Positions 35,940 to 38,902 of a stretch of DNA of 41,763 nucleotides are shown here, one piece after another. Position numbers and translations under genes: made by a program. The notes beneath the pieces were generated by a model. It had not been told where the DNA came from. It was given only the letters and a program-made list of their open reading frames with translations, and did no database searches. Every line of letters starts with the position of its first letter. The first letter of the stretch is position 1. The stretch comes from Pseudomonadota bacterium (lineage in GTDB: Bacteria > Pseudomonadota > Gammaproteobacteria > Burkholderiales > Rhodocyclaceae). The stretch is taken from the NCBI GenBank assembly GCA_963205435.1, contig CAUJIV010000041.1, positions 1-41,763 on the forward strand, read 5' to 3'.

Positions 35940-38218
<2,279 letters not shown>

Positions 38219-38219
<1 letters not shown>

Positions 38220-38902
38220 TGACGAACAAAACCTCTTTCAACGCAGAGAACGCAAAGGCGCAGAGGACGCAAAGAAAACCAACAGGAATTTTTGCGATCT
38301 TTGCGCTCTTTGCGTTGAATGCGTTTGCCGTGGGTATTGCCGAGGCCGCCGCGCTCGACAGGCTGAAGGCCTTCGTCGAGGGCACGCGCAGCGGCCGCGC
38401 CGATTTCGTCCAGACCGTCGCCGCGAAGAGCGGCCGCAAGCCGCAGCTGGCCGCCGGCAGCATGCTGTTCCTGCGCCCCGGCAAGTTCCGCTGGACCTAC
38501 GAGAAGCCCTACCATCAGCTGATCGTCGGCGACGGCGAGAAGCTGTGGGTATACGACCGCGACCTCAACCAGGTCAGCGTCAAGCGGCTGGCCGAGGCCC
38601 TCGGCAGCAGCCCGGCGGCGCTGCTCGCCGGCGACAACGCGCTGGAGAAGAATTTCGAGCTCGCCGAAGGCGGCAGCCGCGACGGCATCGAATGGGTCGA
38701 CGCGCGGCCGAAGGCGCAGGACAGCGGCTTTCAGGCGATGCGCCTCGGTTTCGTCGGCGACACGCTGCGGGCGATGGAGCTGACCGACAGCTTCGGCCAG
38801 GTGACGACCATCGCCTTCGAGAACTTCGAGCGCAATCCGCGGCTGTCGCCGTCCCAGTTCGCCTTCACGCCGCCGCCCGGGGCCGATGTCCTCGGCGAAT
38901 AG
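38219..38902 (+). CDS. lolA: Outer-membrane lipoprotein carrier protein LolA with repeat-derived signal peptide
   Basis: This 227-residue periplasmic chaperone ferries lipoproteins from LolCDE to LolB. The ATG at 38219 overlaps the ftsK stop (TGATG) and follows GAGAGGGG. The mature domain begins near AALDRLKAFVEGTRSGRADF and has LolA marks such as GSMLFLRPGKFRWTYEKPY, IVGDGEKLWVYDRDLNQV and FGQVTTIAFENFERNP. The signal peptide is odd: residues 7-20 (FNAENAKAQRTQRK) and the hydrophobic core IFAIFALFALNAF are encoded by the two arms of a palindromic repeat. Only the last residues before the likely cleavage site (GIAEA-A) come from outside it. The gene order ftsK-lolA-rarA-serS is conserved in proteobacteria. 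Confidence 0.93.
38237..38319. repeat. Imperfect palindromic dispersed-type repeat inside lolA
   Basis: The left arm (38237-38276) reads TTCAACGCAGAGAACGCAAA and continues with further cGCAGAG/CGCAAAG units. The right arm (38287-38319) is its approximate reverse complement, ending TCTTTGCGTTGAA. Each arm is made of 8-10-bp sub-units of the type ACGCAAAG. I recognise this as a repeat type scattered in many environmental bacterial genomes, usually between genes. Here it is within the reading frame. Confidence 0.85.

Follow-up and report, generated by a model that had tools for sequence, protein, structure and literature searches.

The window analysed here, a stretch of 41,763 nt (contig CAUJIV010000041.1 of the Rhodocyclaceae assembly GCA_963205435.1, forward strand), contains ftsK, lolA and further open reading frames (ORFs), all in the same direction, and a single copy of a dispersed palindromic repeat, located at the beginning of lolA (Table 1). 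The repeat-encoded N-terminus of LolA is predicted to act as its signal peptide. LolA is a lipoprotein chaperone needed for building the outer membrane, and is essential in E. coli. The protein encoded in the window was assigned to this family by its matches to PF03548 (158.5 bits, cut-off 23.6) and TIGR00547 (237.9 bits, cut-off 112); its score against the narrower model NF000661 (244.9) lies under the cut-off of 255. The mature protein is under purifying selection, with Ka of 0.11–0.16 versus Ks of 0.33–0.47 in eight comparisons with the window. No gap separates the two genes, the TGA stop of ftsK (38217–38219) overlapping the ATG of lolA (TGATG).

The original prediction, made from the sequence alone, was that the arms of a palindromic dispersed repeat lie in frame at the start of lolA and encode a signal peptide ending at GIAEA-A. 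Reading of the codons bears this out, the left half giving NAENAKAQRTQRK and the right half FAIFALFALNAF, and the alignment with the best solved LolA (8orn) begins at residue 44, the presumed first mature residue, just past AEA. The palindromic and dispersed nature of the element was likewise upheld by an inverted repeat and by at least 42 matches in the genome, whereas its extent had to be corrected, as it covers about 38230–38326 and not all of 38219–38360. The arms are 28 nt each and 82% complementary, and the RNA of 38219–38350 folds with -55.7 kcal/mol (mean of 200 shuffles -35.2, z -5.25). The repeat includes neither the start codon nor the final seven residues of the signal peptide, and mature LolA would begin with AALDRLK in the frame from ATG 38219. 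In agreement with a putative Sec/signal peptidase I substrate, the N-terminus has a net charge of +3 before the h-window, and Ala at -3 and -1. No usable lolA start was found among the in-frame ATG, GTG and TTG codons searched to 38410; the only later in-frame starts are TTG 38315, within the repeat, and GTG 38330, from which just VGIAEA would remain. A downstream start with another signal peptide, an outcome that would have spoken against the original prediction, was thus absent from the window, and without the repeat its LolA would be left without a signal peptide.

Table 1. Coordinates of the genes, the repeat copy and the parts of the predicted signal peptide in the window
Feature	Position	Strand	Basis
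Dispersed palindromic repeat copy, ~97 bp (AACCTCTTTCAACGC ... GCGTTGAATGCGTTT)	38230..38326	.	inverted repeat; genome copies compared
Inverted repeat, left arm	38230..38257	+	inverted-repeat search
Inverted repeat, right arm	38299..38326	+	inverted-repeat search
Predicted signal peptide, 43 residues, cleavage after AEA (A43/A44)	38219..38347	+	frame; 8orn alignment
Charged n-region NAENAKAQRTQRK, from left half of repeat	38240..38278	+	codons read in frame
Hydrophobic h-region FAIFALFALNAF, from right half of repeat	38291..38326	+	codons; hydropathy window 3.04
Non-repeat remnant AVGIAEA	38327..38347	+	AEA end also in repeat-free congeners G008, G010
lolA, 227 aa, start ATG 38219	38219..38902	+	reading frame, PF03548, TIGR00547
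ftsK	35940..38219	+	ORF; Pfam FtsK_SpoIIIE, FtsK_4TM, FtsK_alpha, FtsK_gamma

The dispersed repeat and its coding bias

The matches in the window's own genome were obtained by BLAST with a 181-bp query (E ≤ 0.001), and their number is a lower bound, with 40 of 103 first-look candidates scored. A short repeat pattern allowing two mismatches matched the window once versus 1.17 expected, which is no more than chance. The copies are palindromes of mostly 70–120 bp, composed of CRCARAG-type heptads spaced 8–9 bp apart. An arm often has three or four of these heptads, and the ends by eye resemble AACC...GGTT. No Rfam 15 model matched the region 37900–38700 at its gathering score (five matches stayed below threshold, the best being mir-2763 with 30.5 bits versus 50). 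Four frame queries, at the thresholds used, gave matches in 20, 6, 7 and 2 of 100 genomes. The mix of types differs between genomes, with 31 matches of the 9-bp type in G011 and 11 of the CACCAAG type in G005; G001 gave zero matches in two repeat searches.

A census was made over the first 2.4 Mb of G002, a congener with a single-contig genome. It yielded 35 clusters of at least four units, versus none in one order-1 Markov control, and a unit-independent search of the same 2.4 Mb found 44 long hairpins, 27 of them with at least three units. Relative to a rough gene call, 22 clusters have no overlap with a gene, 6 overlap partially and 7 lie wholly inside one; the caller is a simple codon score that picks antisense frames in high-GC DNA and misses lolA, and was used for placement of copies only. 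One copy (766922–767016) lies in frame within a transporter-like ORF of about 1,090 residues (765362–768640, L181; presumably of the RND type), to which it adds KHTAFNTENTENTEDTEKIKKISVSSVPSVLNAVF. A palindrome of another family (GTTTCGGG/CCCGAAAC) at 59080–59150 (L145) opens a lipoprotein-like ORF (...NPKRETRNPKLFLLLGFLLLAACGK), and would give an n-region only. The 2.4 Mb of G002, 16 G000 regions and the loci L055–L062, L283–L312 and L337–L348 yielded further candidates for signal peptides made by repeats, among them what we take to be a MurC-like and a Gph-like protein; all were rejected because on inspection they looked like antisense frames or like extensions upstream of an evident start.

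The proposal that the strand asymmetry of the palindrome yields one charged and one hydrophobic arm was examined in 40 copies (30 from G002 and 10 from G000), each read in six frames. All are forward-then-reverse clusters whose arms hold three or four units; the two copies that make signal peptides in G002 (lolA and nirN) were left out and the copy in the transporter ORF was kept. Of the 240 frames, 33.8% are open and combine a net positive first half with a hydrophobic second half, versus 0% with the reverse order. The charged-then-hydrophobic order was much rarer in the controls, i.e. 0.9% in mononucleotide shuffles, 0.9% in random palindromes and 2.1% in random 96-mers of G002. When the 5' arm of random palindromes was set to 70% purine, the figure was 4.2% (0.2% in reverse order), and at 30% purine the figures were 0.2% and 4.6%, respectively. 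Palindromes built from shuffled left arms gave 19.4%. The 5' arm consists of 41% A and only 7% T. The letters of the arm together with the palindrome therefore explain over half of the effect, and purine bias alone explains little. Because a palindrome is the same on both strands, the charged-then-hydrophobic order is independent of orientation. The 8-bp-spaced copies in lolA (four) and in the NirN-like gene described below (two) use the open frame LCLCVSVV/LCLCASVV, which is among the most hydrophobic in the copies printed.

Predicted signal peptides of LolA and of a NirN-like protein in the genus

A lolA gene was present in 55 of 60 genomes searched, the window's own included; the congeners G003, G006 and G015 gave no match, and the comparison within the genus, which belongs to the betaproteobacteria, comprises 13 genomes including the window. 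A repeat-made LolA signal peptide occurs in seven of these, in three repeat types: CGCAAAG-type units in the window and G004, CACAGAG units 8 bp apart in G002, G005, G007 and G012, and CACAGAG units 9 bp apart in G011. The other six have repeat-free signal peptides, e.g. MRLAAILLFALLPVVAEA (G010) and MMRIALILLVLLPPFAEA (G008); G009, scored as repeat-free, has a GCATTC/GCATTTG run which might be a worn repeat. Hence, relatives do not all share the N-terminus of the window: among the 12 congeners six are repeat-free, a palindrome unlike that of the window is present in five, and only G004 has one that is similar. The part behind the repeat also varies, from FALFALLPALAEA in G007, which is still hydrophobic and matches repeat-free congeners, to VLFSTVAQA (G005), FAVGIAEA (window) and VSAEA (G004). 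The flanking ftsK was found in 13 of 13 genomes. An upstream lolA start is in frame through the repeat in L009, L020, L013, L016, L019 and L011. In G005 (L010) the start by the ftsK stop does not share the frame of lolA, and an ATG in the repeat loop is the only fitting start, barring a frameshift error in the draft, so that here the repeat may supply the lolA start codon itself.

The h-regions of the seven repeat-made LolA signal peptides have hydropathy values of 2.46–3.07, which fall within the range of 87 repeat-free N-termini (1.70–3.44, median 2.66), and Ala is found at -3 and -1 in all seven. Left out of the 87 were L071, L079, L081, L087 and L101 (repeat-bearing, adjacent or doubtful), L065 (duplicate), L091 and L035 (frame unclear) and duplicate rows. 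Among 80 named relatives read for lolA, five of which are identical to congener sequences, other palindromes lie in the signal-peptide frame of lolA outside the genus in L087 (ACACGAATG-type) and L101 (CGCGAAGG-type). L071 has four right-arm-like units and is truncated by the end of its contig; L079 is a doubtful case. In L081, also outside the genus, a palindrome lies upstream of an ordinary start.

A second host gene was identified in G002, where the copy at 905,410–905,488 encodes the N-terminus MNNLFRHRDTETQRKARRFLFSLCLCVSVVNGFAFA of a protein that combines cytochrome c and cytochrome d1 domains. The solved structure closest to it is 6rtd, annotated as a cytochrome c, which we take to be NirN; the preceding gene encodes a radical SAM protein, presumably NirJ. 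A repeat-made signal peptide is present in this NirN-like protein in 6 of 13 congeners (G003 and G006 were outside the search, and G015 gave a distant paralogue only). Again several types are represented: CACAGAG in G002 and G007, CACCAAG in G005 and G014, CACAGAG with 9-bp spacing in G011, and CACGGAG/CACAGAG in G004. An ordinary signal peptide (MKxGFILRGLLPLLLA...) is common to G001, G008, G010 and G012, with a longer form in G013, and G000 and G009 have other signal peptides. Both host proteins belong to families that we assume to be exported. The two genes thus have in common an exported product and an overlapping start, since the NirN-like gene of G002 overlaps the preceding stop (ATGA) as lolA does (TGATG); as a guess from two cases, overlapping starts might explain why strong hairpins are tolerated at both.

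Tree analysis was based on seven proteins (14 rows, 2,124 columns); a smaller, earlier tree dropped L023, L025 and L026. On the species tree, presence or absence must have changed at least five times at lolA and at least four times at nirN, and repeat type at least seven and six times, respectively. Change at these sites is shown despite the weak tree, because two well-supported sister pairs differ: G004 and G012 (support 100/100) in the type of lolA repeat, and G001 and G002 (99/97) in the presence of a repeat at both lolA and nirN. Trees with a single clade were rejected for each of six groups (p-AU ≤ 0.003), including all repeat-bearing lolA genes (0.0006), the four of CACAGAG type (3e-5) and the two of CGCAAAG type (0.0005); the smaller tree gave similar rejections of one-clade lolA groupings.

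Synteny was studied with 21 repeat sites from the window and from G000 regions that had been chosen because they match; 12 of these have a syntenic gap in the part of G002 covered. Ten of the 12 gaps, lolA included and one of them loose (1.4 kb), are also occupied by a repeat in G002 and two are empty; in seven of the ten occupied pairs CGCAAAG units predominate in the copy from G000 and CACAGAG units in the one from G002. The gap upstream of a presumed acyl-CoA dehydrogenase gene, judged by eye in 11 genomes, holds CGCAAAG in three, CACAGAG in two, CACCAAG in one, another palindrome in two and none in three, and the gap before what we take to be gph holds a repeat in 5 of 13 genomes. Some gaps thus keep repeats across several species while the repeat family changes. 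Concerted conversion of units (CGCAAAG to CACAGAG) in insertions common to G000 and G002 was rejected as the sole explanation, because loops and spacings show different occupants of one gap (three unit types and another palindrome). Empty and filled sites are too different for a target-site duplication to be read by eye.

Some individual sites deserve mention. In G001 and G010 (L315, L316) the other palindrome (GGTGTCCGATTCCC...) lies, by eye, upstream of the acyl-CoA dehydrogenase-like gene where relatives have heptad repeats; CACAGAG-frame matches number 0 in G001 and 4 in G010. The syntenic copies at L046 3243–3339 (G000) and G002 1400649–1400867 are by eye far closer to each other than other pairs, as if by recent exchange or conservation. 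Two copies in L039 (G000 contig C17; 1160–1261 and 2822–2938) are 1.6 kb apart, and the two matching gaps of G002, with a spacing of about 1.5 kb, likewise hold repeats.

Probable capture and turnover of signal peptides

On the strength of the sequence comparisons, repeats at overlapping gene junctions are very probably read as signal peptides that replace the old one, with repeat families turning over at these sites. A palindrome of about 100 bp sits at the stop–start junction of ftsK and lolA, directly after the lolA start codon, and is read through in frame. We propose that an arm of the repeat assumed the function of the old h-region, and that this region then decayed. The apparent stages would lead from an ordinary signal peptide, via a repeat with the old h-region behind it (G007) and a repeat with a stub (the window), to another repeat. 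The A-rich, T-poor 5' arm could account for the frequent success of such events: where one arm has codons that specify Lys, Arg, Gln, Glu and Thr, the other has Phe, Leu, Cys, Ser and Val codons, and the charged arm would precede the hydrophobic one in either orientation, as a Sec signal peptide requires. With turnover of the families, the signal peptide would change along with the resident repeat.

Several observations weigh against this interpretation. Signal peptides are made by only 2 of the 35 clusters in the 2.4 Mb of G002, and the genus yielded no more than two host genes; the expectation that repeats of this kind create signal peptides elsewhere was borne out by the NirN-like protein and by lolA of other genera, but not as a general rule. 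LolA of G011 has a net charge of 0 before the h-window, its left arm being acidic, and hairpins of -56 to -76 kcal/mol (three cases) behind the start codon could hinder translation. In the coding-bias analysis the author-set thresholds are loose, and letter order is needed for part of the 33.8%, since arm composition and palindrome give 19.4%. Finally, 6 of the 11 inner branches of the species tree are weak, and interspecies recombination, or loss combined with gene conversion, could mimic repeated capture.

That last scenario supposes one insertion before the radiation of the genus, with later losses and with gene conversion in which other resident repeats were the donors. It would fit the right-hand end GGTGAGTGG common to the four CACAGAG copies in lolA, three of which have similar flanks behind it, the occupation of 10 of 12 syntenic sites in congeners, and loop sequences that by eye are common to some copies. 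The rejection of single-clade lolA trees speaks against it, yet conversion and loss would pass such tests; the copies vary, moreover, in unit, spacing and unit number, and lolA outside the genus has unrelated palindromes. This history, as opposed to several independent captures, seems to us less likely than not. A rather different alternative is that the repeat is an intergenic RNA or DNA element (a hairpin, a processing site or a binding site) whose frame is incidental, LolA being started downstream or otherwise made. Most copies indeed look intergenic, as the 22 clusters of G002 without gene overlap indicate, the hairpin is very stable, and the palindrome of L081 precedes an ordinary start. 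At the TGATG overlap of the window, however, such an element would leave LolA with neither a usable downstream start nor a signal peptide, and the six lolA loci with an upstream start in frame through the repeat, together with the in-frame loop ATG of L010, make this alternative quite improbable. Mis-joining of repeats to gene starts in metagenome bins hardly deserves credence: the genome of the window, 85% complete, is in 134 draft contigs, but the arrangement recurs in separate assemblies, including the single contig of G002 for both genes and public contig JAEUNH010000053.1 (L065), which has the same sequence as G007, and ftsK flanks lolA in each of the 13 genomes compared.

We lean slightly towards the broader view that palindromes with an A-rich, T-poor 5' arm could be orientation-independent signal-peptide cassettes behind coupled starts of exported proteins, and a general route by which signal peptides originate and turn over. 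In some cases such a cassette would also provide the start codon, and from then on even an essential protein would have its signal peptide renewed as one repeat family displaces another. Signal peptides are loosely constrained and evolve fast; we found little documentation of the origins of new ones in the open-licence literature. The present case would offer a concrete source, visible in apparent stages, and a simple reason in the genetic code. Other copies, in many frames and in either orientation, should then export a reporter, and signal-peptide replacements should be more frequent in repeat-rich than in repeat-poor lineages. For annotation, it is a warning that N-terminal peptides such as TTETQRHRE...SLCLCVSVV can be real.

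The nearest precedent is the RU-2/YPAL repeat of Yersinia, which gives the predicted signal peptide of YPO1552 (Delihas 2007, PMC2759123; PMC2229807). According to these sources, the signal peptides predicted for homologues of YPO1552 bear no relation to the repeat, as in lolA, but a single putative exported protein and a single repeat family are involved, whereas in the present genus the signal peptide is almost completely replaced, in LolA as well as in a NirN-like cytochrome, across several genomes and by several families, with a coding reason that is independent of orientation. The Rickettsia palindromic elements (RPE; Ogata 2000, 2002, via PMC2229807), of 105–146 bp, are found in frame in conserved genes as well as between genes. 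The present repeat, with copies of mostly 70–120 bp, agrees with such protein-coding palindromic repeats of the RPE or RU-2 type, which measure about 100–150 bp, in being palindromic and dispersed, with some copies in frame in conserved genes and others intergenic; it differs from RPE, as far as these are described in that source, in its unit structure (tandem CRCARAG-type heptads, 8–9 bp apart) and its hosts, and in supplying a predicted export signal, whereas the RPE insert treated there at greatest length, in gmk, is described as neutral. Bacterial miniature inverted-repeat transposable elements (NEMIS/Correia, ERIC/RU-1, RUP) are characterized in the same source as about 100–200 bp long, with long stem-loops, mostly intergenic and in some cases read as ORFs (PMC2229807). 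The present copies resemble them in size, stem-loops and mostly intergenic location, but TA at both ends was not seen by eye in the copies printed. Another heptad repeat is represented by the TAACTGA direct repeats of Beggiatoaceae (PMC4679880). Strings of 15–17 bases from the present units were not found in the open-licence literature, a weak negative. To these precedents the present case adds the recurrence, both at lolA and in another gene, the several families per site, the apparent intermediates and the measured coding bias.
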